Shown here in pieces: positions 1 through 12,373 of a DNA stretch of 23,767 nt. The translations under genes were made by a program, and so were the position numbers. The stretch lies in IMG/VR virus record IMGVR_UViG_3300023174_000632, positions 1 through 23,767 of that record; one strand, written 5' to 3'. Numbering within the stretch: the first letter of the stretch is position 1; the number at the start of each line of letters is the position of its first letter. The stretch is from a virus. The notes below the pieces were generated by a model that was given only the letters and a program-made list of their open reading frames with translations, did not search any database and was not told the origin of the DNA.

Positions 1-43
1 ATGAGATCTAAGTGTATCAAACTTTATTTATAATGGAAAGAGG

Positions 44-1033
44 TTATGAAAATTTTTTAAAAATATGGTCAAATGCGTTATTGGTCAACCGCAACCAATT
101 ATATTCTTCATGTATTTTAGTTGACTGAGCATAATAATAAGATGAATATGCTTTAAAATTTAAATCTATGTCTCTCATAAGCTCAAGTAGATGTTGATAC
201 TCTGGCTCATAAACTTTACCTTCATGCATGTAATCCCATGGAGAATCTATTAATCTAGATTTTAATTTTAGTGGACCAATATAATCTTTATACTGAGCCC
301 ACTCGTGTGTTGATATAGTTGGCATGCCAGTGGCCAATGCCTGTAGTGGTATAAATCCAAATCCTTCTCCGTAGCTAGGATATATTAAAACATCATGGTC
401 ATGATAAAGTTTAACAAGCTCCTCGTCATTTAATATAGAAGTATTTAAAAATATATTATTATATATTTGATGGGGCAATCCTATAATATTTTTATCTATA
501 TAGTTATTAAATACTCTGGCAGTGCTATGATTAAAAGCTTTTATTGTTAAAGAGTATCCTGGCTTATTGCCAAATAAGTATCCAAATGTGTCTACTACTA
601 ATTGTCCACCTTTTCTTGGAGAAGGTTCTCCTATATGCAAAAATTTTAAAGTTTCTTTTTGTTCTCTTTTTTTAGGTGTCCACATAGGGTCTATGCCATG
701 TGGAAATACTTTTATATTGCCAAATCCATTATTATCAAATACATTAGCACACCAATCTGATGTTGTCCAAAATTCATCACAATGTCTTATGTTGTCGTGC
801 CATCTTTGAGGAATAACTGTTGACTCCCAAGGAGTATATCCAATTTGATATTGTTTTTTATGTAATTTAAAAAGATCTGGTTGTGAAAAATTTAATTGAA
901 CTAAGGATTTAGGATCTTGAAATGGGACAAAATGCCCTAGGGAATTTAATGAATTAACTATATTTCTTCCCGCATAGCCGTATCCATTTTCGCCTTTTAT
1001 GTTTACAACTGGCGTAGAAAACGAAATATTCAT
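44..1033 (-). CDS. GT-B fold glycosyltransferase (group 1 / GT4-like)
   Basis: Predicted to transfer a sugar from an activated donor to an unknown acceptor (host surface glycan, phage DNA or virion protein). The 329-residue protein has the GT-B pattern: a PHGID segment at 111-115, GEPSPRKGG at 135-143 at the start of the donor-binding domain, and YPSYGEGFGF at 218-227. The usual E-x7-E motif reads E223...Q231, so the second acidic residue is replaced by Gln; activity may be altered. The start is supported by AGGAAGA about 7 bp upstream. It is transcribed divergently from the lysozyme-like cassette. The family call rests on motifs only; substrate unknown. Confidence 0.8.
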   Translation of the reverse strand: MNISFSTPVVNIKGENGYGYAGRNIVNSLNSLGHFVPFQDPKSLVQLNFSQPDLFKLHKKQYQIGYTPWESTVIPQRWHDNIRHCDEFWTTSDWCANVFDNNGFGNIKVFPHGIDPMWTPKKREQKETLKFLHIGEPSPRKGGQLVVDTFGYLFGNKPGYSLTIKAFNHSTARVFNNYIDKNIIGLPHQIYNNIFLNTSILNDEELVKLYHDHDVLIYPSYGEGFGFIPLQALATGMPTISTHEWAQYKDYIGPLKLKSRLIDSPWDYMHEGKVYEPEYQHLLELMRDIDLNFKAYSSYYYAQSTKIHEEYNWLRLTNNAFDHIFKKFS

Positions 1034-1045
1034 AAATTCTTCCTG

Positions 1046-1060
1046 GTCAACTGGGTTGAC
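1046..1060. promoter_or_regulatory. 15-bp palindrome in the divergent promoter region
   Basis: GTCAAC-TGG-GTTGAC is a perfect 6-bp inverted repeat between the glycosyltransferase and the lysozyme-like gene. Its right arm overlaps the TTGACA -35 of the rightward promoter, the position expected of a repressor site. No cognate regulator is recognised. Confidence 0.4.
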
Positions 1061-1085
1061 ACGTCTTATTAATTAATGCTACTAT
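1056..1085 (+). promoter_or_regulatory. sigma-A promoter for the lysozyme-like cassette
   Basis: TTGACA (1056-1061), 18-bp spacer, TACTAT (1080-1085). Predicted transcript start near 1092, with AAAGGAGG following at 1103-1110. Confidence 0.7.
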
Positions 1086-1118
1086 TGTAGTTCGTTATCT
1101 CTAAAGGAGGAAATGCCA

Positions 1119-1679
1119 ATGGAGAGAATCAAACAACGTTTGAGCGATGTTGCTCATAATTGGGCGTATATAGGAATGATAACATTATTCCTATTTTCCG
1201 TCCAGCCTGGGCCAACAATAACTCAAGCACTAACAACTGTACCTGCAAAGGTACAAAAAACCGAAAAACAACTAAAAAGAGAAATAATAAATAAGTTCAG
1301 CAATGATACTTATAAGCATTCAGAAATGCTTGCAGCCGAGGATTTAAAAGATTTATTATGGGCTGTAGGATTTGAAGGAACTGCTTTAAAAACAGCTTGG
1401 GCTGTTGCTACAGTAGAATCTAATGGAAGACCATTAGCTCTAAATGACAACAAATCAACTGGAGATAAATCTTACGGAATTTTTCAAATTAATATGCTAG
1501 GAGAACTTGGCTTAGCAAGAAAAGAAAAATTCAATTTAGTTTCAAATAAGGAATTATTTGATCCAGTAACGAACGCAGAGATAACGTACTATATGACCAA
1601 AGGCGGAAAAGATTGGTCATCATGGCCTAACTCAATAGGAAAGGCCAAAACTCTTATTAAAGAGTTTCCAGCATCATAA
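1119..1679 (+). CDS. membrane-anchored lysozyme / lytic transglycosylase-like protein
   Basis: Likely cleaves peptidoglycan glycan strands during entry or lysis. Of the 186 residues, about 14-30 form one hydrophobic membrane segment, followed by a basic linker. A lysozyme-like domain spans about 85-180: AWAVATVESNG with probable catalytic Glu100, SYGIFQIN at 118-125, VTNAEITYYM at 150-159 and a WSSWPNS end, the usual SLT/lysozyme order. An ATG at 1113 exists, but AAAGGAGG ends only 2 bp before it; the ATG at 1119 has 8-bp spacing and is preferred. First gene of a three-gene cassette; it ends within the AAGGAG of the next gene. Confidence 0.8.
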   Translation: MERIKQRLSDVAHNWAYIGMITLFLFSVQPGPTITQALTTVPAKVQKTEKQLKREIINKFSNDTYKHSEMLAAEDLKDLLWAVGFEGTALKTAWAVATVESNGRPLALNDNKSTGDKSYGIFQINMLGELGLARKEKFNLVSNKELFDPVTNAEITYYMTKGGKDWSSWPNSIGKAKTLIKEFPAS

Positions 1680-1688
1680 GGAGCAATA

Positions 1689-1907
1689 TTGGGAAAGATA
1701 CAAACTGTATCTAGATATATAGCTTTATCAGAGGAAGGCCTTGTTCCAAGACTTGAATGTCCAATGGATCAGGGCCTTCTGATGCCTAACATAACCTTAG
1801 ATGATAAAGAATTTCTATATTGCTTATCCTGTAATTATCAAAATTTCATAGGAATTAAGTTCTATGAAGATATTTTAGAGAAAATAAAGGTAGCAGAAAA
1901 TGTCTGA
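1689..1907 (+). CDS. small Cys-containing protein, unknown function
   Basis: A 72-residue protein starting at TTG, with AAGGAG overlapping the preceding stop at 5-bp spacing. It holds an ECPMDQG segment and a later YCLSCNY, a possible but incomplete zinc ribbon with three cysteines. It overlaps the next gene by 8 bp, so translation is probably coupled. No family recognised. Confidence 0.65.
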   Translation: MGKIQTVSRYIALSEEGLVPRLECPMDQGLLMPNITLDDKEFLYCLSCNYQNFIGIKFYEDILEKIKVAENV

Positions 1908-2145
1908 TCAAGAGTCCCAAAGCTTAGAAGATAACTTACCTATGGTTAATTACATTATGCTTCATAGAATTTATGACATGTTGACTATTATGGCTAATAA
2001 GGTAGATCCTGAAAAAACTGAAAAAATGATTAAGTATCATGAAGAAGGTTACCTACTTGGACCATCTCCTTCATTTACTCCTCAAGATGGTTCTGGAGAA
2101 TCTAGTACAGAATTTACTCAAGAGATCCTTGACTTAGAAAAATAA
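1900..2145 (+). CDS. hypothetical acidic phage protein
   Basis: An 81-residue acidic protein with a short helical middle (HRIYDMLTIMANKV) and a Ser/Pro/Gly-rich disordered tail. Its ATG lies inside the end of the preceding gene, with AAGGTAG upstream. The last codons carry the -35 of the promoter for the downstream small RNA. No family recognised. Confidence 0.7.
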   Translation: MSDQESQSLEDNLPMVNYIMLHRIYDMLTIMANKVDPEKTEKMIKYHEEGYLLGPSPSFTPQDGSGESSTEFTQEILDLEK

Positions 2146-2157
2146 GTATTTTATAAT
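2129..2157 (+). promoter_or_regulatory. strong sigma-A promoter driving a small RNA
   Basis: TTGACT (2129-2134), exactly 17 bp, TATAAT (2152-2157): five of six and six of six consensus bases. It starts inside the end of the 1900-2145 gene. Predicted start at about 2164, exactly where the first RNA stem begins. Confidence 0.75.
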
Positions 2158-2163
2158 AAATGT

Positions 2164-2258
2164 GTACGGGTCGTAGCATCCCACAATGTTCCCCGTACTT
2201 AGTTCGAAAGAACTAGCACTGCCCAATCGGATCCGCCTCTGATTGGGTTTTGTGTTTT
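2164..2258 (+). ncRNA. candidate ~95-nt intergenic small RNA
   Basis: It lies between a near-consensus promoter and an intrinsic terminator, with no plausible ORF inside. Predicted structure: stem GTACGGG (2164-2170) with CCCGTAC (2192-2198) around a 21-nt loop; hairpin AGTTC-GAAA-GAACT (2201-2214) with a GNRA tetraloop; then the terminator hairpin. The predicted transcript start coincides with the first base of stem 1. I do not recognise an RNA family and cannot name a target. Confidence 0.6.
2222..2258 (+). terminator. intrinsic terminator
   Basis: CCCAATC (2222-2228) pairs with GATTGGG (2241-2247), followed by TTTTGTGTTTT. Confidence 0.8.
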
Positions 2259-2622
2259 ATTAGAGGCATATTTTAATTACAGTGCATTGCGAAAAAAATA
2301 AAGTGCGAAAAAAGTGCTTCGGCGAGATAGAGACCCCTTCCCCATATTCCCACATATAACCCACCATCTAACCCCAAAGATTTGCCATTTAGGCCTTAGA
2401 AGGCCGATATGGGGTATTTTAAAAAAGGCGGGTGAAATCAGATACTCCCCAATTATCCCCCTATATATAATAACAAAGAGAATACAAAGTAGAGAGATAA
2501 TACCAGGATAATCAATCTATTCATATGTCTCATTCATAATATCTTAGTCAACTAGAATATATTAAGCAAATAAGGCAAAGAATGAATAAGCTATGATTAT
2601 GATTAATATACTGGCAATTGCT
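2259..2622. other. gene-poor stretch with a cruciform-like hairpin
   Basis: No convincing gene in this 360-bp stretch. It contains two direct copies of GCGAAAAAA (2289 and 2305). It also has a nested inverted repeat at 2371-2415: outer ACCCCA/TGGGGT, inner GGCCTT-AG-AAGGCC. An unusual run of C-tracts lies around 2330-2370 and 2445-2462. A 65-codon open frame here has no ribosome site and low-complexity composition, so it is not called. Confidence 0.5.
2539..2560. repeat. 22-bp imperfect palindrome, copy 1
   Basis: ATATCTTAGTYRACTAGAATAT with central CA. It is identical to copy 2 at 2953-2974 except for the two central bases. The core TAGTCAACTA is a near-palindrome. Together the copies flank the HNH gene. 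Confidence 0.7.
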
Positions 2623-2916
2623 CTATTTAGTAGGTTTTTCATTTTTCCCCGCCCTTCTTTTATGAGTTCTTACTCTATGACAATTTGAACACACTATCTC
2701 ACATTTGGCTATCTCTTCATCTATTTTCTTTTTAGATAGAGTAGATATTAATTCCATAACATTTTTATGTTTGCGCCCTCTTACATGGTCAAAATCCATT
2801 ACATAATATGGATATGATATTTTACAGTCTAAACAAGGAGTAGAAGATTTTAGCTCCTGGATATATTTTATCAAGAAAGCTTTATGTTTCCGATCAGTCG
2901 TCTTCTCCGACTTCAT
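2623..2916 (-). CDS. HNH endonuclease (small, homing-type)
   Basis: Probable DNA-cleaving HNH nuclease of 97 residues: a structural Cys pair at 28/31, catalytic region DFDH (His44), second Cys pair CSNC at 76/79 followed by His80. The layout fits free-standing HNH homing endonucleases of phages. The start ATG at 2916 has almost no ribosome-site spacing, but a TATACT -10 lies 6 bp upstream, suggesting a leaderless mRNA. The gene sits between two 22-bp near-identical repeats, which could mark an insertion or be operators. Confidence 0.8.
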   Translation of the reverse strand: MKSEKTTDRKHKAFLIKYIQELKSSTPCLDCKISYPYYVMDFDHVRGRKHKNVMELISTLSKKKIDEEIAKCEIVCSNCHRVRTHKRRAGKNEKPTK

Positions 2917-2922
2917 ACCTTA

Positions 2923-2928
2923 AGTATA
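2923..2928 (-). promoter_or_regulatory. -10 element of a probable leaderless promoter
   Basis: TATACT ends 6 bp before the HNH start codon. The -35 is poor (TATGGA at 17 bp). The 22-bp palindrome copy 2 lies just upstream and could bind an activator or repressor. Confidence 0.45.
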
Positions 2929-2952
2929 TCTTTTAATTATTCTAATCCATAT

Positions 2953-2974
2953 ATATCTTAGTTGACTAGAATAT
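2953..2974. repeat. 22-bp imperfect palindrome, copy 2
   Basis: Same 22-mer as at 2539-2560 in the same orientation, with central TG instead of CA. Its TTGACT is also the -35 of a rightward promoter. Confidence 0.7.
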
Positions 2975-2989
2975 TAGATAATATAAAAT
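2962..2989 (+). promoter_or_regulatory. sigma-A-like promoter reading into a gene-free structured region
   Basis: TTGACT (2962-2967), 16-bp spacer, TAAAAT (2984-2989). Downstream on this strand there is no gene until 4082; the first 250 bp hold a chain of hairpins. Confidence 0.5.
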
Positions 2990-2995
2990 GTTAAT

Positions 2996-3245
2996 AAAAT
3001 TTTTATTTTCCAGTATATGTATTATATATTGTTTTTTATTGGATACTTCCAGATTTAGAGAATACAAACCCTATACCCTTAAAATATATTTTTAAGAGAC
3101 CCCGAAACTGTCCAGTTTATAAGACTGCAATTCATCGGTTGAACCTATAGTATAGGCCAAGACTAATAACACTTCCGTCATTGTCGAACTTGGAGTTTAA
3201 ACCCTTGATATCATCTCCGAAAACTATCCAAGGTTAGAATTATAA
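2996..3245 (+). ncRNA. possible structured RNA, unknown family
   Basis: No ORF of note in 2917-3279. Consecutive hairpins: CTTAAAA/TTTTAAG near 3078-3096; AAACT-GTCC-AGTTT (3105-3118); CCTATA-G-TATAGG (3144-3156); CCAAG (3157-3161) with CTTGG (3189-3193); CCTTG (3203-3207) with CAAGG (3229-3233). A promoter lies directly upstream on the plus strand, but no clear terminator. It overlaps neither nuclease gene. No resemblance to a tRNA. The strand is inferred from the promoter only. Confidence 0.35.
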
Positions 3246-3279
3246 CATTAAAAAATTATGTGTGTCAAGGAAGCCTATT

Positions 3280-3828
3280 TTAAGCATGTTCTTCTAAATA
3301 TGCAATTGCACTTTTTAATATAGAAATATTATCTTTAACTGCGCCAAGAGCCATATTACATTGAGAACATAAAAGTTTTCTTATACATTTTTTACAAGCT
3401 TTACCCTTACCACAACAATTATGATCATGGTCAACTGACAATCTTTTTTTTGTATAACTTGGTTCTTCTTTTTTGCATATATAGCACTTACCACCTTGAT
3501 CTTCAAGCATTTTAATATATTCATCTGGAGTAAGATCCATCTTTTTAAGGTTATGCAATATTCCTATAGATTTAGAACATTCTCTGCAATAAGTTATTCT
3601 TTCTCCCGCCCTTTTCGGAAATTGAGTAAGGGGTTTAATTTTTTCACATTTTCTGCATTGCTTTGATTCCCCATCTTTATACATAACCTTCATGCTTCTA
3701 GGATATTTAATCTTATGATATGCAGATCTACATTTTTTACACCAATAATCTTTTCCATCAAGATTTGCAGCATTAATCGCAAAATTATTTAAATCCTGCT
3801 TTTTTTCACATATTGAACATGTTTTCAT
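3280..3828 (-). CDS. endonuclease VII-like HNH nuclease with N-terminal zinc ribbons
   Basis: Likely a phage recombination or debranching endonuclease (Endonuclease_7 family), or a homing relative. Among 182 residues are two Cys4-type ribbons (CSIC/CKKC at 4-33 and CRKC/CREC at 58-84). These precede an HNH domain: CYIC at 115-118, DHDH at 133-136, CSQCN at 154-158, then a helical end typical of the family. The start at 3828 lacks a ribosome site but lies 6 bp after TAAAAT, indicating a leaderless mRNA. Confidence 0.85.
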   Translation of the reverse strand: MKTCSICEKKQDLNNFAINAANLDGKDYWCKKCRSAYHKIKYPRSMKVMYKDGESKQCRKCEKIKPLTQFPKRAGERITYCRECSKSIGILHNLKKMDLTPDEYIKMLEDQGGKCYICKKEEPSYTKKRLSVDHDHNCCGKGKACKKCIRKLLCSQCNMALGAVKDNISILKSAIAYLEEHA

Positions 3829-3834
3829 ATTAAC

Positions 3835-3864
3835 ATTTTATCATATATCTTATAAAAATGTTAA
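3835..3864 (-). promoter_or_regulatory. leaderless sigma-A promoter for the endonuclease VII-like gene
   Basis: TTAACA (3864-3859), 18-bp spacer, TAAAAT (3840-3835), then 6 bp to the start codon. Confidence 0.55.
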
Positions 3865-3920
3865 TTTAGAATTTAAATTTTGTTAATAGAGCTATTTTTT
3901 GTATGATGCACATATTTAAA

Positions 3921-4019
3921 ATGTCCGATTTGTCCAAATAGAGCGACCATATAGGGGGCATATGTGGCTTAACTCACACAATTAATTTTCAAAATGTCCG
4001 ACATGTCCGATTTGTGAGT
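3921..4019. promoter_or_regulatory. cluster of ATGTCCGATTTGT operator-like repeats
   Basis: Two full copies (3921-3933 and 4003-4015) and a partial ATGTCCGAC (3994-4002), upstream of the first promoter of the rightward block. ACTCACA (3972-3978) and TGTGAGT (4013-4019) form an inverted repeat around the second pair. The same 13-mer recurs at 15143-15155 and, with one change, at 15179-15191, just beyond the far end of the block. Likely binding sites for a phage regulator. Confidence 0.5.
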
Positions 4020-4025
4020 GGCAAA

Positions 4026-4048
4026 ATGTCAGTCCCCTATGTTAGGCT
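4026..4048 (+). promoter_or_regulatory. RecA-NDp/PafBC-type promoter 1
   Basis: ATGTCAGTC, 8 bp, TAGGCT. It fits tTGTCRGTG-N8-TAnnnT, the actinobacterial RecA-independent DNA-damage promoter, with a weak box end. AACGAAAGG follows at 4065. Confidence 0.7.
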
Positions 4049-4081
4049 TATTGTATAAGTAATCAACGAAAGGACTACTAA

Positions 4082-4306
4082 ATGATAACTACAATTAAAG
4101 CAATAGACGAGGCTTACTCTACCCTATCCCCCGCTCTTAAAGATTATTTTGATGAGCATTGCTGGACATATGAGCAAGCCTATCTCTACTACTCTGAGCA
4201 TTGGGCTTATCAAGACCTCTCTGATGAGCGTATCGTCATGATGGCTGTTGAGCATGTCTTGACTACTATTGAGGCTCTAAAGAATGACACCTACGGGGCT
4301 TACTAA
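4082..4306 (+). CDS. hypothetical small phage protein
   Basis: A 74-residue acidic helical protein, rich in Tyr, His and Trp in the middle (EHCWTYEQAYLYYSEHWAY). Preceded by promoter 1 and the AACGAAAGGA ribosome motif at 8-bp spacing. First gene of the rightward block. No family recognised. Confidence 0.75.
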   Translation: MITTIKAIDEAYSTLSPALKDYFDEHCWTYEQAYLYYSEHWAYQDLSDERIVMMAVEHVLTTIEALKNDTYGAY

Positions 4307-4318
4307 TGTGAGCAACAC

Positions 4319-4355
4319 CACACCCGCAGGGCTTGCGCCTTGTCGGTGGGGTGTG
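4319..4355 (+). terminator. hairpin overlapping promoter 2
   Basis: CACACCC (4319-4325) pairs with GGGTGTG (4349-4355), enclosing AGGGC-TTGC-GCCTT. The right arm is the spacer of promoter 2, so the structure could end the upstream transcript while the same DNA starts the next one. No T-tract follows. Confidence 0.45.
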
Positions 4356-4362
4356 ATAAGGT
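4340..4362 (+). promoter_or_regulatory. RecA-NDp/PafBC-type promoter 2
   Basis: TTGTCGGTG, 8 bp, TAAGGT: full nine-base box, poorer -10. AACGAAAGG at 4377. Confidence 0.7.
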
Positions 4363-4392
4363 TTCACCATAACAAAAACGAAAGGTAAGAAA

Positions 4393-4485
4393 ATGGATAA
4401 CACACAAAACGCAATAGACGCTCTAAAGTTGGCTAACCAATTACTGGGCGACATGTTCGGAATTGACGAAAGTGAGGATAACTAA
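4393..4485 (+). CDS. 30-aa hypothetical peptide
   Basis: A short acidic peptide starting ATG GAT AAC, 7 bp after AACGAAAGG. Its stop TAA abuts the next ATG (TAAATG), the junction used through this four-gene operon. Called because of the promoter, ribosome motif and tight coupling. Confidence 0.6.
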   Translation: MDNTQNAIDALKLANQLLGDMFGIDESEDN

Positions 4486-4659
4486 ATGATGACTAAATGG
4501 GACACTATTCAAGCAGATGTCGCAGATGCTTATCGCCACCTAGATGAATTAGAGGCGTTAGATAAACACAATACCGAAACAATATTTGATGAGGACATAG
4601 TTAGCCTTGATGAAATAATCGAAAATGAATTAACACTAGATTGGGAAGGTGCGGAATAA
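4486..4659 (+). CDS. 57-aa acidic hypothetical protein
   Basis: Starts directly after the preceding stop and ends directly before the next start. Strongly acidic and helical (Asp/Glu throughout, WEGAE end). No family recognised. Second gene of the promoter 2 operon. Confidence 0.65.
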   Translation: MMTKWDTIQADVADAYRHLDELEALDKHNTETIFDEDIVSLDEIIENELTLDWEGAE

Positions 4660-4806
4660 ATGGAGTTTTATTTAGATTTAGATTATCTTTCTTTTTATGT
4701 AAATAATTTATATCCTAGCGGTATAGCGATAGAGATACCTACATGGGTAATCGTTGGCACTATAAGTTTTATCTATTCGATTAAACTACTAAGGAGAGAT
4801 AGATAA
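4660..4806 (+). CDS. 48-aa single-pass membrane protein
   Basis: One hydrophobic segment at about 26-45 (IPTWVIVGTISFIYSIKLL) followed by a basic RRDR tail, suggesting a small inner-membrane protein with its C terminus in the cytoplasm. Coupled on both sides through TAAATG junctions. Function unknown. Confidence 0.6.
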   Translation: MEFYLDLDYLSFYVNNLYPSGIAIEIPTWVIVGTISFIYSIKLLRRDR

Positions 4807-4905
4807 ATGGCAAACCCTAGCGGATTTTATACCTGCCCTAAATGTGGCAGGTTAAATGCTGGCGCATATACTAAATGCGTGTGTGAGGAAACTCACAAAG
4901 AATAG
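4807..4905 (+). CDS. 32-aa mini zinc-ribbon protein
   Basis: TCPKCGR near residue 10 and KCVC near 24 make a compact Cys4 zinc site, which strongly suggests a translated protein despite its size. Last gene of the promoter 2 operon, coupled to the gene before it. Confidence 0.65.
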   Translation: MANPSGFYTCPKCGRLNAGAYTKCVCEETHKE

Positions 4906-4958
4906 ACGGCGTGTCGCCTTGACAAATGCGGCAGCTGCCCGCAGGCTTTTGTGGGCGG

Positions 4959-5032
4959 TTTTCCACAGGCTTACGCACAGATGTGGAAAAACCCTGAAAA
5001 TCTGTGGATAACTTCGGGCGTGTCGTGGATAA
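4959..5032. other. DnaA-box cluster, candidate replication origin
   Basis: Four matches to the DnaA box TTWTNCACA or one base from it: TTTTCCACA (4959-4967), TGTGGAAAA (4982-4990, reverse), perfect TGTGGATAA (5003-5011, reverse) and CGTGGATAA (5024-5032, reverse). They lie in a 247-bp intergenic stretch, followed by AT-rich DNA with an inverted repeat CATGTG...CACATG. Either an origin or a DnaA-regulated promoter region. Confidence 0.6.
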
Positions 5033-5100
5033 CTCATGTGATTAAGAACACATGATTTGAGCGTCTCAAAATATGGAATTACTCACAAGTAATATGAAAA

Positions 5101-5123
5101 TTGTCGGTGGGTTAGAGTATAAT
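5101..5123 (+). promoter_or_regulatory. RecA-NDp/PafBC-type promoter 3
   Basis: TTGTCGGTG, 8 bp, TATAAT: a perfect match. AACGAAAGGA at 5133, 9 bp after the -10. Confidence 0.85.
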
Positions 5124-5152
5124 ACAAAGCATAACGAAAGGAAGTGGCTAAC

Positions 5153-5344
5153 ATGGCTAACTTATATACAATACAAGATTTGCTAATTGGTAAAATCTAT
5201 AACTCAAAAACTTTGCGTGGTGAAATTATCTCCGCAGATAAATCAGATATCTGGTATGAAAATGCCGAAGGGTATTTGGTTCAGATTAAAAGCGATACTG
5301 GTAAATATACTTATCGAAATATCGCAGTAAAGGTAGGTGAATAA
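5153..5344 (+). CDS. 63-aa hypothetical protein, beta-rich
   Basis: Starts MANLYTIQ. A GTG nine bases upstream is too close to the AAAGGA, so ATG 5153 is preferred. Alternating hydrophobic residues (GEIISADKSDIWYENAEGYLVQI) suggest a small beta-barrel. Stop abuts the next ATG. Confidence 0.7.
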   Translation: MANLYTIQDLLIGKIYNSKTLRGEIISADKSDIWYENAEGYLVQIKSDTGKYTYRNIAVKVGE

Positions 5345-5434
5345 ATGGATTATTTAGATTATTTAGATGAAATCTATGATGAATTAGTAGATGAATTTGG
5401 TGATGAAATCACCACTAAATCTGCCACCGCTTAA
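5345..5434 (+). CDS. 29-aa acidic peptide
   Basis: Starts MDYLDYLDEIYDELVDEF, extremely acidic, coupled to the preceding gene through TAAATG. Its 3' end GCCACCG pairs with CGGTGGC inside promoter 4. Coding status rests on context only. Confidence 0.5.
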   Translation: MDYLDYLDEIYDELVDEFGDEITTKSATA

Positions 5435-5457
5435 TTGTCGGTGGCTTAGGCTATAAT
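5435..5457 (+). promoter_or_regulatory. RecA-NDp/PafBC-type promoter 4
   Basis: TTGTCGGTG, 8 bp, TATAAT, beginning at the base after a TAA stop. Part of the box forms a 7-bp inverted repeat with the end of the upstream gene (GCCACCG/CGGTGGC). Confidence 0.85.
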
Positions 5458-5485
5458 TACCAATAACAACAACGAAAGGCAAGTA

Positions 5486-5611
5486 ATGAATAAAGAAAAA
5501 ATGCGGGACAGCGTAATCTTTGATTGTGCTGATTGTGGTGGTCGTGGATATATCTACTGGGGATTAAAACCTGAGTTTGATGTTAAAACTTGTGATTGTG
5601 CGGGTGAGTAA
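5486..5611 (+). CDS. 41-aa zinc-finger protein
   Basis: FDCADCGGRGY at 13-23 and TCDCAG near the end give a DnaJ-like or ribbon-like Cys4 site. Starts 6 bp after AACGAAAGG. Stop and next start share TAATG, so the three genes to 5999 are coupled. Confidence 0.7.
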   Translation: MNKEKMRDSVIFDCADCGGRGYIYWGLKPEFDVKTCDCAGE

Positions 5612-5814
5612 TGTATAAATTATTTACTTACTATGACGGCAACCTAGAATACACCGAACAATATGCTGACCCGCTAGAAGCGTTCACAACTTATTTATTT
5701 AAGTGTGTTGATAAAGGTAATGCTAAAGAAAACGCAACTTACAATTTATCATTACCAAATGGAAAAATGTATACTAAAAACTTTAATAGTAATGGGTTTG
5801 TAGGTGGCAAATAA
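5611..5814 (+). CDS. 67-aa hypothetical protein
   Basis: Begins MYKLFTYYDGNLEY. Mixed alpha/beta composition with repeated Asn/Tyr. Coupled by TAATG on both sides. No family recognised. Confidence 0.7.
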   Translation: MYKLFTYYDGNLEYTEQYADPLEAFTTYLFKCVDKGNAKENATYNLSLPNGKMYTKNFNSNGFVGGK

Positions 5815-5999
5815 TGATGAGCCGTAAAACTTATGTTCAGACCGCTGAAATTTTAAATTATTTATCTGATAAAGTTCATCCCGCAATTTTCTCTAAAGTT
5901 ATTGGAGATTTTGCGGTGATGTTTGCTAAAGATAATTCTAATTTTGATGTAAATAAATTTCATGATGCTAGCGGTTATAAAACAATTAATTTAAATTAA
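5814..5999 (+). CDS. 61-aa hypothetical protein
   Basis: Starts MMSRKTYVQTAEILNYL, ends KTINLN, and looks helical with a central HPAIFSKVIGDFAVMFA. Small proteins of this composition are common beside phage DNA-metabolism genes, but no function is recognised. Ends just before a terminator. Confidence 0.7.
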   Translation: MMSRKTYVQTAEILNYLSDKVHPAIFSKVIGDFAVMFAKDNSNFDVNKFHDASGYKTINLN

Positions 6000-6018
6000 C
6001 TTGACAATTGGCGCAAAA

Positions 6019-6046
6019 GCGCCCACTCAAGCTGTGGGGGCGTTTT
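6019..6046 (+). terminator. terminator with competing hairpins
   Basis: GCGCCCAC (6019-6026) pairs with GTGGGGGCG (6034-6042) with a bulge, followed by TTTT. An alternative GGCGC-AAAA-GCGCC (6010-6023) shares the left arm. Confidence 0.6.
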
Positions 6047-6063
6047 GTGATTTAAGACACATG

Positions 6064-6086
6064 CAGAAAATCCTCTGGATTTTCTG
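6064..6086. repeat. perfect 10-bp inverted repeat upstream of promoter 5
   Basis: CAGAAAATCC-TCT-GGATTTTCTG. It sits where other intergenic regions of the block carry the CCTGAAAAT module. Confidence 0.55.
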
Positions 6087-6102
6087 GCGTGTTGATTTGT
6101 AA

Positions 6103-6125
6103 ATGTCAGATTGACCTGCTATAGT
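6103..6125 (+). promoter_or_regulatory. RecA-NDp/PafBC-type promoter 5
   Basis: ATGTCAGAT, 8 bp, TATAGT. AACGAAAGG at 6137. Confidence 0.7.
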
Positions 6126-6152
6126 TCCATTAACTTAACGAAAGGTCAACTA

Positions 6153-6308
6153 ATGAACGATATCAATTCCTGCTACTGTACTAATCATTCTATTTGCACA
6201 ATTTGTGCCCGTGGCTATACTACCGAAGGCATGGCCGTGTATGATCGTGATCTAGCTCAAGATTGGGCTATGACACGAATGGCGGATGCGGAAATGGGGG
6301 ATTTGTGA
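6153..6308 (+). CDS. 51-aa Cys-rich hypothetical protein
   Basis: Starts at the first ATG after AACGAAAGG; an earlier in-frame TTG lies inside the promoter and is rejected. CYCTNHSICTIC near residues 7-18 suggests a zinc site, followed by a helical MAVYDRDLAQDWAMTRMADAE tail. Its stop TGA overlaps the box of promoter 6. Confidence 0.65.
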   Translation: MNDINSCYCTNHSICTICARGYTTEGMAVYDRDLAQDWAMTRMADAEMGDL

Positions 6309-6330
6309 TGTCGGTCCCTCCTGCTATAAT
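6308..6330 (+). promoter_or_regulatory. RecA-NDp/PafBC-type promoter 6 (leaderless output)
   Basis: ATGTCGGTC, 8 bp, TATAAT. The next ATG lies only 7 bp after the -10, so the transcript should begin at or next to the start codon. This is the only member of the series without the AACGAAAGG motif. Confidence 0.75.
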
Positions 6331-6337
6331 TTCCCCC

Positions 6338-7057
6338 ATGTTAAAAAGATCTAATGATCGTAAGGTTACTAACCTTGTCTCTAAGAATGGTAAAACTCCT
6401 GCCATTGCGAATACATTCGGCCTGCCTGCAGGTAAAGAATTCTCATGTCCTGGCGCCACTAGCATATGCGAAAGCGTATGTTATGCAGGCAAATTAGAAA
6501 AATTATATAAAGGCGTTAAAGACGTGCTCATGCACAATTGGAATTTACTTAAAGACGCCGACGAATCCACCATGGTGGATTTATTAGAAAATATGATTAA
6601 TGATTTTCGAAAAGATTGTGAAAAGAAAAATGCTAAATTATTATTCCGTATCCACTGGGACGGAGATTTTTTTAACGATACCTATGCACGTGCATGGCAA
6701 TACGTTATTTTGAACAATAGCGATATTCAATTTTGGGTGTATACACGAGTTAAGTCTGCTGCTCTTATTCTAGATAACATTGCTAATTTATCTCTTTATT
6801 ATTCTACGGATGACGAGAATAAAGATATTGCTCATGATCTACGTAAGACTGGTACTAAAATTAGATTGGCATATCTAGGTAAAACTTTTGGCATAACCGA
6901 AAGTACTATGAAAGAGTTAACTGGTAAGCCTGGTGCTAAATGTCCTGAAAATAATAAAAGCATTCCGCTAATTTCTACTAACGGTTCCGCTTGTGTATCG
7001 TGTGGCTTGTGCGTATTTGGAAAAGCAGATGTTAGATTTTCTGCTAGTAAAAAATAA
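6338..7057 (+). CDS. GP88-like Cys-rich phage protein
   Basis: Resembles the phage Gene product 88 family of unknown function: GLPAGKEFSCPGA-x3-C-x3-CYAGK (Cys37, Cys44, Cys48) near the N terminus and a Cys cluster at the C terminus (Cys202, 219, 222, 225). The eight-residue spacing pattern could bind zinc or an iron-sulfur cluster. Residues 100-115 hold RIHWDGDFF, a conserved-looking acidic patch. The start at 6338 (239 aa) is chosen because promoter 6 ends 7 bp upstream; longer in-frame starts at 6263 and 6308 would be cut off by it. Confidence 0.7.
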   Translation: MLKRSNDRKVTNLVSKNGKTPAIANTFGLPAGKEFSCPGATSICESVCYAGKLEKLYKGVKDVLMHNWNLLKDADESTMVDLLENMINDFRKDCEKKNAKLLFRIHWDGDFFNDTYARAWQYVILNNSDIQFWVYTRVKSAALILDNIANLSLYYSTDDENKDIAHDLRKTGTKIRLAYLGKTFGITESTMKELTGKPGAKCPENNKSIPLISTNGSACVSCGLCVFGKADVRFSASKK

Positions 7058-7058
7058 A

Positions 7059-7151
7059 ATGGCGTTTGCGTTAGGTGAAATGTTTGGGGCTCTATTCTGC
7101 ATAACAATTGCGGCCCCATTCATAATGTTTTTTTATTTCTTATTTAAATAG
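7059..7151 (+). CDS. 30-aa hydrophobic membrane peptide
   Basis: Starts 1 bp after the preceding stop, with no separate ribosome site, so reinitiation is likely. Nearly the whole peptide is one membrane segment (GALFCITIAAPFIMFFYFLF). Holin-like size, but too short to call. Confidence 0.45.
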   Translation: MAFALGEMFGALFCITIAAPFIMFFYFLFK

Positions 7152-7241
7152 CGCCGCTGGCGCCCACAGAGCTGCGGGGTCGGGCGTGTCCTTAAGGGTG
7201 TGATGTAAATCACCCTGGAAAATATGGGCGTGTTGTAATAA
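7152..7241. other. intergenic hairpin pair
   Basis: GCGCC-GCT-GGCGC (7151-7163) and AGGGTG (7195-7200) with CACCCT (7211-7216). The second is followed by CCTGGAAAATATGGGCGTGT, a variant of the module seen before other promoters of the block. Confidence 0.45.
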
Positions 7242-7264
7242 ATGTCAGTTAAAACTGCTATAAT
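7242..7264 (+). promoter_or_regulatory. RecA-NDp/PafBC-type promoter 7
   Basis: ATGTCAGTT, 8 bp, TATAAT. AACGAAAGGAA at 7274. Confidence 0.8.
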
Positions 7265-7288
7265 TCCAACCACAACGAAAGGAAGCAA

Positions 7289-7495
7289 ATGAAAACAGTT
7301 AAACACTCTCTCAAATTCATAACTGAATTAGATGAAAACAACCCAACGGCTAAACGCCTACTTGCGCTACCTGAAACACAGCAAATTGCTATGCTAGAAA
7401 GTATGCTTAAAGAATTGGTTGCCCCTCAACTATCTGAAATACTTAAAGAATTAAACAAAAATAATTCTTTCGCAACTCTAAAGGTGGCTATCTAA
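7289..7495 (+). CDS. 68-aa helical hypothetical protein
   Basis: Almost entirely helical, Leu/Glu/Lys-rich (LLALPETQQIAMLESMLKELV), likely a coiled-coil or small oligomer. Start fixed by AACGAAAGGAAGCAA. Coupled by TAATG to the next gene. Confidence 0.7.
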   Translation: MKTVKHSLKFITELDENNPTAKRLLALPETQQIAMLESMLKELVAPQLSEILKELNKNNSFATLKVAI

Positions 7496-7776
7496 TGCTA
7501 TCAACAGCAATATCGTTAGCAGAGGCAACCAAAAAAGCCATATATGATGATGAAATAATGGCGTTGGCTGGCGAACTACACACACGCAGAAATGAACTTA
7601 ACGATAATCAATTCCCTAGATATATCTATATGTATTCAATAGCGTTAGCAAGTAAGGTGGCAGACCTTACTACTAAAATATTACTGACCGAACAACAAAT
7701 GTCAGACCTAATTGATACAATTAACGAAATGGACAATATAACCGAAACAGTACTGGAGGAAAACAATGGGATATAA
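7495..7776 (+). CDS. 93-aa helical hypothetical protein
   Basis: Long helices with a Tyr/Met-rich middle (FPRYIYMYSIALASKVADL). Overlaps the next gene by 11 bp. A weak promoter-like match to the PafBC box lies inside it (7699-7721). No family recognised. Confidence 0.7.
   Translation: MLSTAISLAEATKKAIYDDEIMALAGELHTRRNELNDNQFPRYIYMYSIALASKVADLTTKILLTEQQMSDLIDTINEMDNITETVLEENNGI
7699..7721 (+). promoter_or_regulatory. weak intragenic PafBC-type site
   Basis: ATGTCAGAC, 8 bp, TACAAT, then TTAACGAAATGG, an imperfect echo of the cassette inside a coding sequence. It could feed the 7766 gene or an internal ATG at 7729; it may also be chance. Confidence 0.25.
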
Positions 7777-8035
7777 CACAGCACTAGACTTAGCAGAGAG
7801 TTTTGACTTAGACCAAGCAATTCTAATTCATCTACAAAATAATCATTACCCACCCGTACCCGCATCTATGGTAGAACCATGTATTGATGCTATTGATGCT
7901 TACTACGAGGAGGACTATGATAAGTTAATTAAACTACCTGAACCCGTACTATGGAAGGGCAGAGATCAAGCACCTGCCTCAGCAATTATAGAAGCGCATC
8001 ACCTAGAAGCATGGCTACCCGAAACCGACTACTAA
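7766..8035 (+). CDS. 89-aa acidic hypothetical protein
   Basis: Begins MGYNTALDLAESF, with GGAGG-type ribosome site upstream inside the preceding gene. Acidic middle (IDAIDAYYEEDYDKL). Promoter 8 starts at the base after its stop, and ACCGAC near its end pairs with GTCGGT of that promoter. Confidence 0.7.
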   Translation: MGYNTALDLAESFDLDQAILIHLQNNHYPPVPASMVEPCIDAIDAYYEEDYDKLIKLPEPVLWKGRDQAPASAIIEAHHLEAWLPETDY

Positions 8036-8058
8036 TTGTCGGTGGTGGGTGCTATAAT
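8036..8058 (+). promoter_or_regulatory. RecA-NDp/PafBC-type promoter 8
   Basis: TTGTCGGTG, 8 bp, TATAAT: perfect match. CCTCAACGAAAGGAAA follows, the copy with the longest complementarity (16 nt) to the small RNA at 12799-12930. Confidence 0.85.
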
Positions 8059-8081
8059 ACAACCTCAACGAAAGGAAATAA

Positions 8082-8222
8082 ATGGAAATCGGAACAACCT
8101 ACACAACTACCCAAAGTGGTATTACTGGAGTTATCAAAGCAATAGATAACCACCCAAGCGGAGTTAATCGTATTCTGCTTGATGTAAATGGAACTGAACG
8201 CTGGACAAGCGTAAGAGCATAA
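8082..8222 (+). CDS. 46-aa hypothetical protein, beta-rich
   Basis: MEIGTTYTTTQSGITGVIKA, then a DVNGTERWTSVR end: a compact beta pattern resembling a tiny SH3-like or OB-like barrel. Start set by promoter 8 and AACGAAAGGAAATAA. No family recognised. Confidence 0.65.
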   Translation: MEIGTTYTTTQSGITGVIKAIDNHPSGVNRILLDVNGTERWTSVRA

Positions 8223-8249
8223 CAAAACCCACCTAACGAAAGGAAACAA

Positions 8250-8672
8250 ATGGCAAGACAGAAAGCAATTAGCGTAAAAATCGCTACAACTAAGGTTATT
8301 AAAGCCTTAGAAACTAGGTTAGCCAAATTAGAGGCTGACTTTAAGAAGCAAGACGAAAACGAAGCAAAGTATCAAAAATCCGTTGAGAAATGGAAAAAGG
8401 AACTATTCTCGTTTGCGGTTGCTAATATATCTAAGGCAGAAAACCTTAGAACTAATTATCGTTCTTGGAACAATAACCTTAATGTTGATTTTGATTTAAC
8501 AGTTAAGGAAAACTCGTTCCCTGCCGAGCCTCAAAGAGATTTTGAGCAACTCCATGTTCATACTTATCGTGAGATGAAAGAGGAAATGGAGAACGCTATC
8601 CGTATTCTCAAAATGACAGATGAGGATACAGTAAGCACAAGCACTTACAACGCTATCGCAAGATACTTGTAA
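8250..8672 (+). CDS. 140-aa coiled-coil protein
   Basis: Residues about 15-60 form a Lys/Glu-rich coiled coil (ALETRLAKLEADFKK). The C-terminal half is mixed, with HVHTYREMKEEMENAIRIL. AACGAAAGGAAACAA precedes the start, but no promoter box lies in the 27-bp gap. The gene is therefore cotranscribed from promoter 8, which shows the motif is tied to translation rather than only to promoters. Confidence 0.75.
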   Translation: MARQKAISVKIATTKVIKALETRLAKLEADFKKQDENEAKYQKSVEKWKKELFSFAVANISKAENLRTNYRSWNNNLNVDFDLTVKENSFPAEPQRDFEQLHVHTYREMKEEMENAIRILKMTDEDTVSTSTYNAIARYL

Positions 8673-8679
8673 TACTGAT

Positions 8680-8704
8680 GGGGGCTAGACAAAATCTAGT
8701 CCCC
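8680..8704 (+). terminator. hairpin at the end of the 8250 gene
   Basis: GGGGGCTAGA-CAAAA-TCTAGTCCCC with one G-U pair and no T-tract. The right arm runs into a degenerate promoter (AGTCCCCTATGT, TAAAAT at 8710-8715) resembling promoter 1. Confidence 0.5.
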
Positions 8705-8800
8705 TATGTTAAAATAGTTATCCGTTCTGGCATAACGACAAATTGCGAACAACCTGAGCAAGTTGCTAAACTGCTCACAACTACTACAAAAAGGAAATAA

Positions 8801-9016
8801 ATGCGTTATAGAATAGAAATCTATGATGAAGTAAAAGCTAACGATTTAACTATTTACTCAGATGAAAATATAGAGCGTGAAGGTTTATCTAAAATTGTAT
8901 TTTCATATTTGCCCCGCTTTAACGGTAATGTTAAGGCATATGTATTTGATCAGATAAAAAAAAGAAAAACTGCAGCATCTTTTTATCCCATGGATGTTAG
9001 AGAATTAATTAAATAA
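8801..9016 (+). CDS. 71-aa hypothetical protein
   Basis: MRYRIEIYDEVKANDLTIYSDE opening suggests a ferredoxin-like beta-alpha fold; the tail is basic. Its ribosome site is AAAAAGGAAATAA, lacking the AACG extension. Its leader of about 80 nt is longer than in the rest of the block and holds a hairpin GAGCA...TGCTC. Regulation may differ. Confidence 0.7.
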   Translation: MRYRIEIYDEVKANDLTIYSDENIEREGLSKIVFSYLPRFNGNVKAYVFDQIKKRKTAASFYPMDVRELIK

Positions 9017-9023
9017 TAATCTT

Positions 9024-9064
9024 GGGCCAGGTTTGTAACGTGTAATCATCTAGATCCCTGGCCC
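9024..9064 (+). terminator. hairpin terminator-like
   Basis: GGGCCAGG (9024-9031) pairs with CCTGGCCC (9057-9064) around a 25-nt loop, after the 8801 gene. Only a weak T-run follows. Confidence 0.5.
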
Positions 9065-9067
9065 ATC

Positions 9068-9141
9068 TTCCCAGGCTGCCCGCACACCTGCGGGGTTATC
9101 CACAGCCTTACGGCTACCTGTGGAAAACTCCTGAAAATTTG
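9068..9141. other. second DnaA-box element, related to 4940-5010
   Basis: Perfect TTATCCACA (9096-9104) and reverse TGTGGAAAA (9119-9127). The order CTGCCCGCA, WTCCACAG, CTTACG, TGTGGAAAA, CCTGAAAAT matches the 4959 element, so the two are diverged copies. Confidence 0.55.
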
Positions 9142-9159
9142 ATAATGATAAGATAGACA

Positions 9160-9182
9160 ATGTCAGTGGACTGTGTTAGAAT
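9160..9182 (+). promoter_or_regulatory. RecA-NDp/PafBC-type promoter 9
   Basis: ATGTCAGTG, 8 bp, TAGAAT. AACGAAAGGA at 9195. Confidence 0.8.
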
Positions 9183-9208
9183 AGGCACTAATCAAACGAA
9201 AGGATAAA

Positions 9209-10216
9209 ATGGCTCATAACCTAGAACAACAAGATGGTCAAGTAGCATTTGCGCTGCGTGGCGCTCCTGCTTGGCACAATCTTGCAAACCGCATTTTCGG
9301 TCAAGACGAAAATGTAAGTACTGCAACTATGCTTGAAGAAGCAAAGTTAAATAACTGGAATGTCCGCTTGTCGGATGTTGCAGATCATATTCCAAATACA
9401 TGGAGAAATACATCAGACAATTTCTTCGTAATTCGTGATAACCCATTTGATGGTGGTACCGACGTGCTATCAGTAGTTGGTAATCGATATAAGACCGTTC
9501 AAAATGAGGATTTATTCGCATTTGCTGATAACGTGTTAGATAACGATTCTGCTAGATGGGAATCTGCTGGCTCAATTAAGAATGGCAAAGTTGTATTTGG
9601 CTCATTAGATATTCCTCGTGAAATCGTATTAGACCCACAAGGTATAAACGATAAAACTAAGTTATATCTAATTGTCTGGACATCACATGATGGTTCAGTA
9701 TCAGTTCAAGCAGCAATCACACCTGTTCGTGTTGTATGCCAAAACACTTTGAATCTTGCAATGCGTACCGCAAAGCAATCATTTAAAATTCGCCATACTC
9801 AAACTGCTGAGGGTAGAATTGTTCAAGCCCGTCAAGCATTGGGATTGACATTCACATACGCTGATGCATTCCAAAAGGAAGCAGAAGAGTTATTCCAGCA
9901 ATCAATTACTGATAAGCAATTTTCAGATTTGATTCGCAATCTATATCCAAAGCCTGACACTACTGCTAAAAACGCATTGGCTCGTTGGGAAAATAAAGTT
10001 GTGATGATTGATGACTTGTATCATAACTCACCAACTAATAACACAATTAAAGGCACTGCTTGGGGTGCGTTTAATGCATTAACTGAGCGCTTAGATTATT
10101 ACCGTTCATCTAAAAAAGGTAATACATCTTCGCTAATGGCAGCAGCAAGTGGTTTTGACCCATTGCTAACTGCTGAGAAGAATAAAATTCTCAAAGCAGT
10201 TAAAGCGCTAGCCTAA
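9209..10216 (+). CDS. DUF932 phage/plasmid-like protein
   Basis: A 335-residue member of the DUF932 family found on phages and plasmids, of unknown biochemical role. The start MAHNLEQQDGQVAFALRGAPAWHNL and the central VRVVCQNTLNLAM are family hallmarks. Full length for the family. It sits directly downstream of the second DnaA-box element, in keeping with a link to replication or host takeover, but this is context only. Single-gene unit between promoter 9 and a GC-rich hairpin. Confidence 0.85.
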   Translation: MAHNLEQQDGQVAFALRGAPAWHNLANRIFGQDENVSTATMLEEAKLNNWNVRLSDVADHIPNTWRNTSDNFFVIRDNPFDGGTDVLSVVGNRYKTVQNEDLFAFADNVLDNDSARWESAGSIKNGKVVFGSLDIPREIVLDPQGINDKTKLYLIVWTSHDGSVSVQAAITPVRVVCQNTLNLAMRTAKQSFKIRHTQTAEGRIVQARQALGLTFTYADAFQKEAEELFQQSITDKQFSDLIRNLYPKPDTTAKNALARWENKVVMIDDLYHNSPTNNTIKGTAWGAFNALTERLDYYRSSKKGNTSSLMAAASGFDPLLTAEKNKILKAVKALA

Positions 10217-10223
10217 ATAAATT

Positions 10224-10241
10224 GGGGCCCGAAAGGGCCCC
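10224..10241 (+). terminator. perfect GGGGCCC hairpin with GAAA loop
   Basis: GGGGCCC-GAAA-GGGCCCC directly after the DUF932 gene. No T-tract. Confidence 0.6.
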
Positions 10242-10322
10242 ATATCTAAAGCTGCGCCCAGGGCTGAAGGCCCAAATTCTTTCTTACGGCATCTATAAAA
10301 AAAGCCCCAGCAATCCTTGATA

Positions 10323-10345
10323 ATGTCAGTCGACTCTGATACAAT
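10323..10345 (+). promoter_or_regulatory. RecA-NDp/PafBC-type promoter 10
   Basis: ATGTCAGTC, 8 bp, TACAAT. TCAACGAAAGGAA at 10354. Confidence 0.75.
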
Positions 10346-10370
10346 TGCGACATTCAACGAAAGGAATGAA

Positions 10371-11120
10371 ATGCCAAACTGGGTATATAATACTCTAACT
10401 ATACAAGGTCCAAAGGACCAAGTAGATTCAATTAAAGAAAGATTGAATCAACCGTTTACCGTATTACATGATTCATGGAATATGGAAACTAATAAAATGG
10501 AAATATCAGAATCTAAATACTCTAATCCTGTCTTTGCATTTTGGAATATACATTCTCCATTAGAAGACGGTATTACAATGGAAGAATATGTTCAACAACC
10601 TAATCGACTAGGTATTGACACCAATTCACCTGATTGGTTTGCTAAAGAGGTGGAGCATGCTAAAACTCAGAAAGATTGGTATAACTGGAATACAACTAAC
10701 TGGGGAACTAAGTGGGATGTTGCCGTATCAGATGATGACAAGTATCCTGATACAGAACTACTTGAGCATGTGTCTAACGGAGAAGACCAATGGCTTGTCT
10801 ATAAATATAATACTGCTTGGTCTCCTGCCGTTACTATATTAACTAAACTATCATTACTTATTCCTAACTGTGTTCTAACCTTAGAGTTTGAGGAAGAGAC
10901 AGGTTGGGGTGGCGAATATGAGATTCTTCGTGGTGAAGTAACAGAACGCTTAGAATATGAAAATCGTTGCTATGCCTGCCAATCTTTTGACACAATAGAT
11001 TCTTGTGAAGAAGGTTGTGGCGAATTTTGCTCAGAATGCAATCAAGGATCTTGGCAAGATGAAGAGGCTATGGCACAATGTGATACACACGTTTCTCTAT
11101 TAGAAAAAGTGGAAGCATGA
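10371..11120 (+). CDS. Api92/YubB-like protein with C-terminal zinc ribbon
   Basis: MPNWVYNTLTIQG and the later WNTTNWGTKWDV are hallmarks of the Api92/YubB-like ferredoxin-fold family of phages and conjugative plasmids. Function unknown. Residues about 215-240 add a Cys-rich module (CYACQSFD, CEEGCGEFCSEC) that looks like a zinc ribbon. The start at 10371 (249 aa) follows AACGAAAGGAATGAA; a longer in-frame start at 10317 is upstream of the promoter and rejected. ATGA overlap with the next gene. Confidence 0.8.
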   Translation: MPNWVYNTLTIQGPKDQVDSIKERLNQPFTVLHDSWNMETNKMEISESKYSNPVFAFWNIHSPLEDGITMEEYVQQPNRLGIDTNSPDWFAKEVEHAKTQKDWYNWNTTNWGTKWDVAVSDDDKYPDTELLEHVSNGEDQWLVYKYNTAWSPAVTILTKLSLLIPNCVLTLEFEEETGWGGEYEILRGEVTERLEYENRCYACQSFDTIDSCEEGCGEFCSECNQGSWQDEEAMAQCDTHVSLLEKVEA

Positions 11121-11770
11121 CAGAAAGCTGGTTTAAAGATACTCATCTATGCACAATATGTGATGCCTTGGTTGAGGTAACACGTAAAGATGAGTTTAGG
11201 AATATATGGCACTGTGGTGTCGAATGCAACCTATTGTCAGTAGAAGATGCTACAATACTCCCAACAACAACGAAAGGAAATGAAATGAATGGAATGACAG
11301 AAACTAATCTGCCTCTATCAGATGCAGAGCGCTATAACCCTAATCAACTTGTTACATACAAGAAGATTGCAGGAACATTTGCTGCTCCTGAGGCTCCTGA
11401 ATATATTACCGAAAAGGTAGTAGATATTGAATGGGCCTTGGACCAAGCACGTAAACAATCTGCAGACTATTACAGTCTTAAAAATAAGATTGATGGTCTT
11501 AATGACAAGATAGTTGAATGGGCAAATCCTAACTACAGCAAAGAAGAAGTTATTCGTGAACTATGCGAATACTTTGGAATTAATCCAACCAAGCAAGTCA
11601 GGGTAACTGGTACAATTCAGTTCGAAGCCATAGTCGATATTCCTCTTGATGAGGTCGAAGACTTTGACGCACATTATCTGTTAGCAGATGATCTTTCATT
11701 AACATCTTATAATTCAAATGTAGATATTAATGATTGGTCTCTAGAAGATACAGATGTGGATTGGGACTAA
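11117..11770 (+). CDS. hypothetical protein with N-terminal zinc site; internal start gives a short form
   Basis: A 217-residue frame opening by ATGA overlap. Residues 12-37 carry CTIC and C-x3-C (LCTICDAL, HCGVEC), a zinc site. Inside the same frame lie a full PafBC-type promoter (11234-11256), the AACGAAAGG motif (translated in passing) and an ATG at 11285 that would start a 161-residue form beginning MNGMTETNLPLSD. The two parts look like formerly separate genes joined by loss of a stop. The C-terminal part is acidic (DVDINDWSLEDTDVDWD-like end). No family recognised. Confidence 0.65.
   Translation: MTESWFKDTHLCTICDALVEVTRKDEFRNIWHCGVECNLLSVEDATILPTTTKGNEMNGMTETNLPLSDAERYNPNQLVTYKKIAGTFAAPEAPEYITEKVVDIEWALDQARKQSADYYSLKNKIDGLNDKIVEWANPNYSKEEVIRELCEYFGINPTKQVRVTGTIQFEAIVDIPLDEVEDFDAHYLLADDLSLTSYNSNVDINDWSLEDTDVDWD
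11234..11256 (+). promoter_or_regulatory. RecA-NDp/PafBC-type promoter 11, inside a coding frame
   Basis: TTGTCAGTA, 8 bp, TACAAT. CAACGAAAGGAAA at 11268, then ATG 11285 in frame with the enclosing gene. Confidence 0.7.
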
Positions 11771-12372: not shown

Positions 12373-12373
12373 A

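Follow-up and report, generated by a model that had tools for sequence, protein, structure and literature searches.

The stretch at 2129-2258 of the window, by which we mean the whole of the analysed DNA (23,767 nucleotides, positions 1-23,767 and hence the complete IMG/VR virus record IMGVR_UViG_3300023174_000632), is almost certainly a member of a real and previously undescribed small-RNA family common to many uncultivated freshwater bacterial viruses. The RNA probably acts in trans: complementarity between its terminator loop and phage gene leaders suggests that it occludes AGGCGGA sites and tunes how strongly the phage's own replication genes are translated.

Organization and distribution of the RNA gene

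The element comprises a promoter, a first hairpin, an optional second hairpin and a terminator hairpin, and is represented in IMG/VR by more than 100 distinct sequences, one per phage genome. In the window, all of its parts lie on the plus strand. The sigma-70-type promoter (2129-2157) joins the -35 box TTGACT (2129-2134) to the -10 box TATAAT (2152-2157) through a 17-nt spacer, matches the consensus at 11 of 12 positions and ranks among the top five of 92 promoter-like sites found in a scan of positions 1-20000; most relatives keep the same TTGAC..TATAAT/TACAAT layout at a similar distance. Its -35 box falls within the final codons of the upstream ORF (1900-2145, plus strand), a small gene of phrog_12271 that is the syntenic partner of the RNA. 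The predicted transcript of about 90 nt (2163-2255) is recognized by the covariance model R2 with 88.1 bits (E = 2.4e-17), a score that is not independent, as the window sequence belongs to the set used to build the model. Hairpin 1 (2164-2198), supported by covariation, begins about 7 nt 3' of the -10 box and consists of a 7-bp stem (2164-2170/2192-2198), a conserved 2-nt bulge, an inner stem and a variable apical loop. Hairpin 2 (2200-2215; UAGUUC-GAAA-GAACUA), supported by the fold, is dispensable and is missing in two relatives (L082 and L159). The intrinsic terminator (2221-2251), supported by both fold and covariation, is formed by an 11-bp hairpin with a 6-nt loop (2221-2248) and the T run of the T-rich tail that follows. 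Folding of 2158-2258 yields -39.3 kcal/mol, compared with -21.6 +/- 3.1 kcal/mol in shuffled sequences (z = -5.7), and none of 200 shuffles was as good. Together with the promoter match, this bears out the succession of promoter, 7-bp stem, GAAA hairpin and terminator noticed in a preliminary description of 2129-2258.

That description had also named a covariance search in related phages as a check, and conserved structure was indeed found there: the element recurs with compensatory changes, and its arrangement is therefore beyond chance. Across 92 distinct sequences, in an alignment that was fitted to the covariance model, 97.7% of cells are paired, compared with 85.3% for shuffled sequences and 35-48% for slid controls. 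Two-sided base changes occur at 16 of 22 pairs in this alignment, and an independent MAFFT alignment still reveals them at 12 of 18 pairs. Hairpin 1 is under marked constraint, with two-sided changes at 10 of 11 pairs and 96.5% of cells paired, and retains its 2-nt bulge after GGG (GG-UN-G) while the apical part ranges from UUCG to GUAGCAUCCCACA...

Several searches delimit the family. First, a search with the upstream lysozyme-like gene retrieved 80 viral loci, 72 of which carry the element downstream; in several of the remaining eight, the contig breaks off no more than 150 nt from that gene. Second, scanning viral sequences with the terminator-hairpin pattern CCC-N4-GGATCCGCCTC-N5-GGG returned at least 120 stretches, nearly all of which, among the matches listed, have a fully paired stem, with many differing sequences; at least 106 are distinct once flanks are added. 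Applied to 84,980 bacterial and archaeal genomes, this pattern yielded 90 stretches, almost all of them chance matches devoid of stem or context, and a host-derived RNA was not found. Third, among loci fetched solely through the neighbouring phrog_12271 protein, 61 match R2 and others hold divergent forms, some of which R2 overlooks. Large phage records that match R2 do so with a single forward-strand copy each. The window has no match in Rfam 15, where only chance matches far below the cut-off appear at E<=10; five relatives matched tRNAs only, and blastn of cultured-phage records with the element produced only short chance matches.

The gene order preceding the RNA on the plus strand is a lysozyme gene (SLT_3), a small zinc-ribbon-like ORF and phrog_12271. 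Downstream, an HNH gene is found on the minus strand in 62 loci and the same-strand neighbours differ, so that a conserved same-strand downstream gene, as a riboswitch or attenuator would have, was not found. With its own promoter, an intrinsic terminator, no ORF and no consistent downstream gene, the element is a stand-alone gene. The compact small-RNA gene proposed in the preliminary description is thus strongly supported as a structured, covarying element present once per phage genome.

Judged by DNA polymerase III alpha (57% identity) and ribonucleotide reductase (67%), the closest cultured relatives are the Stanwilliamsviridae, which together with GP88 suggests an actinobacterial host. 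Cultured Streptomyces phages of the genus Samistivirus share the order of phrog_12271 gene, gap and convergent HNH gene with the phages that carry the sRNA. At this same syntenic place (L292, L293 and L294, about 1700-1957), the gap is strongly conserved and structured (z = -4.3), but contains neither a UCCGCC hairpin nor an R2 match; it was ruled out as a homologue of the sRNA and may be the site of another RNA or regulatory element.

The terminator hexaloop

The part of the RNA that changes least is the UCCGCC hexaloop of the terminator (2232-2237, plus strand), the proposed seed. It stays constant while its closing stem varies: GGA[UCCGCC]UCY is one form, and the same loop sits on a GAA/UUU stem in L322, L318 and L345, on GAG/CUC in L340, on GUAA/UUAC in L596 and on GAAGAA/UUCUUC in L597. 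The exceptions seen are AUCAUCCU in L040 and CCCGCC in G053. Among 30 composition-matched hexaloops sought in seven sampled phage records and the window, only UCCGCC sits on a perfect stem of at least 7 bp, and it does so once each in six of the seven records and once in the window.

The preliminary description was right about a stand-alone RNA gene, and its choice of working part, a 21-nt loop at 2171-2191, does not hold. This segment is partly paired in the window (AGCAU/AUGUU, with the apical loop CCCACA) and is swapped for unrelated loops of 3-6 nt (UUCG, UUAG, CUU...) in other lineages. Since UCCGCC is kept on changing stems whereas 2171-2191 varies, comparison of the sequences indicates that the terminator hexaloop, and not the 21-nt loop, is the conserved working part. 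Two wider readings of the loop region, a mimic of the 16S 3' tail (GGAUC-CGCCUC compared with GGAUCACCUCC) and the GGAUCC palindrome as a kissing-dimer site, were set aside, as divergent members keep UCCGCC and not GGAUC.

The hexaloop also occurs in other settings. Solitary CGGATCCGCCTCTG terminator hairpins, without hairpin 1 or promoter, follow ordinary genes in L314 (4264-4352; contig 3300027770_001637), in L189 and in L041 near 5149. A UCCGCC hexaloop hairpin of other sequence lies immediately 3' of the phrog_12271 gene in L340, L341 and L343 (3187-3290), where the first hairpin is different and an own promoter is not clear. A near-identical GGGGATCCGCCTCCC terminator-like hairpin with TTGACA upstream is shared by a virus contig (L147) and a Pirellula MAG contig (L270); its context indicates no relationship with the phage sRNA family.

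Complementary sites at phage gene starts

Paired with the usual anti-Shine-Dalgarno CCUCC, AGGCGGA is mismatched in the centre; with the sRNA loop it pairs without mismatch. In the 20 nt before start codons of the sampled phages and the window, AGGCGG and GGCGGA, both complements of UCCGCCU, rank first and second of 30 hexamers of the same composition, with 24 and 21 genes, respectively, compared with 8 for the next hexamer; the counts to be expected, taken from internal start codons, are 7.8 and 11.0. Of the GC-rich non-canonical motifs conserved in the leaders of these phages, the loop complement is the main one that recurs. The sites concentrate in few gene families. Counted by family, the excess of GGCGGA at starts is modest (15 families, 11 in the internal control); it is a handful of families with strong conservation that carry the case.

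One of these is DNA polymerase III alpha. In the 26 intergenic leaders among 47 distinct ones, GGCGG is found directly before the start in 26/26 and GGCGGA in 25/26. In the other 21, an upstream ORF crosses the site and GGCGGA is present in 14; Gly-Gly codons of the overlapping ORF may maintain GGNGGN in one such class of leaders. For ribonucleotide reductase (RNR), GGCGGA is present in 116 of 124 leaders, where it forms the 3' side of a small hairpin; the opposing 5' side differs between leaders in both sequence and register (ACCGC, AUCCG, GCCAAAA, CUGC), which implies that the sequence itself is kept and not the hairpin alone. The eight remaining leaders lack an exact GGCGGA even though the sRNAs seen in those phages have the unchanged UCCGCC loop; RNR was for this reason dropped as the sole target and retained as one of several. 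A short leader precedes the RNR gene and comprises a promoter of its own (TTTGGTAGAATT or GTTTGATACACT) and the small hairpin just 5' of the Shine-Dalgarno site, a feature seen in L002, L045, L099, L168 and about 120 other leaders, and in L493 within the roughly 150 bases before the gene. This hairpin is retained despite differing sequence in L162 and L180, and has another sequence in the Streptomyces phage Genie2.

Among small proteins without assigned function, the VEDHWFNPA (FNPA) family has the motif in every leader seen, and the MGDRANF family in 25 of 38. Twelve distinct MGDRANF leaders are without the site, and the majority of the records sampled from this set nevertheless carry the UCCGCC sRNA, so that co-occurrence of site and sRNA within this group is unsupported. 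The replicative helicase and the LGNYES family have the site in part of the phages; primase, with a site in only 1 of 27 leaders, was rejected as a target.

The window itself offers three candidate targets. The best is AGGCGGAU (14521-14528, plus strand), at the ribosome-binding site of the VEDHWFNPA gene (14529-14930), for which the predicted duplex of -14.7 kcal/mol ranks first of 54 window leaders. A double GGCGGAAGGCGGA (16656-16668, minus strand) before the start of gene 16512-16652 ranks second of the 54, and AGGCGG (12362-12367, plus strand) lies at the ribosome-binding site of the MGDRANF gene (12374-12781; phrog_31860). Many small genes at 4070-5500 of the window and in other phage records share a common leader ending in AACGAAAGG, and in the sampled phages no hexamers are more enriched before starts than CGAAAG and GAAAGG; the AACGAAAGG leaders look like a leader class of their own.

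R2 finds no match in nine complete genomes of related phages; the controls are few and consist mostly of high-GC Streptomyces phages. The few orthologues checked in phages without an R2 match have other sites: AAGGAG (BillNye, Byblos) and AAGGAAGG (Samisti12) before polymerase III alpha, UAGGAG (Mandalore) and GGAAAGG behind a different hairpin (Genie2) before RNR, and GAAAGGAC in DSL-LC01, and similar, before MGDRANF. One record of 109 kb (G052) has a GGCGGA site and no R2 match. The L040 phage combines its changed loop with an intact RNR site, and neither this loop variant nor that of G053 is accompanied by site variants; loop and sites were thus not seen to covary.

These leaders bear directly on the closest alternative, namely that an RNA of the same build acts in trans mainly on host mRNAs and that the GGCGGA sites of the phages are a separate matter, for example a Shine-Dalgarno variant. 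Actinobacteria do have C-rich seed loops directed at ribosome-binding sites of bacterial mRNAs (6C/B11; PMC10470900), and some phage genes of the proposed set lack a site, yet we consider this alternative unlikely given the prominence of the loop complement in the leaders of these phages and the other sites of orthologues in phages without the RNA. Less likely still, the RNA could bind a host or phage protein as a decoy or sponge, the hexaloop and the bulged hairpin 1 being recognition sites that involve no base pairing; the conserved bulge (GG-UN-G...C-CC) and a loop on a freely varying stem, frequent in protein sites, would suit such a function, which however leaves unexplained the conserved loop complement at several phage gene starts. 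That the element is an attenuator or leader of the downstream gene, or a mere terminator of the upstream operon, is very improbable despite its frequent position 3' of lysozyme/phrog_12271 genes and the lone terminator hairpins with the same loop after other genes in L041 and L314/L189, because most members have their own promoter at a fixed distance, the common HNH neighbour is encoded on the other strand, the same-strand neighbours vary, the structure of hairpin 1 is strongly constrained, and a conserved loop is more than a plain terminator requires.

Proposed role and relation to known systems

Pairing with the phage's own leaders would operate as follows. The sRNA, about 90 nt long, would be transcribed from its own host-type promoter and would end in the terminator hairpin, whose exposed hexaloop UCCGCC would act as the seed and pair with AGGCGGA, a non-canonical Shine-Dalgarno site on a small set of phage genes. 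The putative targets are DNA polymerase III alpha, ribonucleotide reductase and small proteins without assigned function. Pairing would compete with binding of the 30S subunit and hence lower the translation of replication and nucleotide genes, perhaps at a time matching the switch from replication to assembly. More tentatively, and with slightly less than even confidence, we envisage an RNA-based translational regulon in a large lineage of uncultivated relatives of actinobacteriophages, in which the hexaloop would read AGGCGGA as a dedicated alternative Shine-Dalgarno code. If so, AGGCGGA marks phage genes for replication and nucleotide metabolism, and conservation across many phages extends to site and seed alike.

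For the phages that infect abundant, uncultivated freshwater bacteria, little is available beyond lists of proteins. The element adds a conserved non-coding gene that occurs once in each phage genome, has a seed open to testing and points to a small number of predicted targets. Should the pairing be real, these phages control their own replication genes through an RNA together with a non-canonical ribosome-binding site that matches it, and a near-invariant loop with its complement at gene starts becomes a means of predicting sRNA regulons in metagenomic phages.

We file the element as a new trans-acting sRNA family that matches neither 6C nor any Rfam family. The 6C/B11 RNA of mycobacteria and other Actinobacteria is a small structured RNA whose C-rich loops pair with G-rich ribosome-binding sites and repress several mRNAs (PMC10470900). 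In sequence, the phage sRNA shares with it a C-rich loop whose complement lies at the ribosome-binding sites of several mRNAs. However, 6C/B11 is encoded on bacterial chromosomes and carries two long C-run loops, whereas the phage sRNA has one terminator hexaloop and proposed phage targets; instead of two stem-loops with cytosine runs, it displays a single near-invariant UCCGCC and its remaining loops vary, and the 6C/B11 Rfam model is absent from the window matches even at E 10. EcpR1 of Sinorhizobium meliloti, which has the loop motif UCCGCCGCAUCU and represses dnaA and gcrA (PMC3927594, PMC4414408), is chromosomal and alphaproteobacterial, with a longer loop (UCCGCCGCAUCU) and another architecture, and the hexamer common to both RNAs is most likely convergent.

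Among phage-encoded RNAs, PreS of phage lambda and VpdS of phage VP882 are described as trans-acting sRNAs, PreS acting on the host replication gene dnaN, in a 2025 review of phage sRNAs (PMC12197685), whose parts covered here include no sRNA that has a marked group of the phage's replication genes as its targets. PreS and VpdS need Hfq and are found in enterobacterial and Vibrio phages, whereas the phage sRNA would act on several phage targets marked by a common site. The likeness in role would be with the RegA protein of T4, a competitor of ribosomes at the initiation regions of some 30 T4 mRNAs (PMC3014915). In both cases one phage factor would act on several of the phage's own mRNAs; RegA is a protein and its sites are A+U-rich, whereas the sRNA would recognize AGGCGGA by pairing. 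If the regulon is real, it would be an RNA counterpart of T4 RegA.
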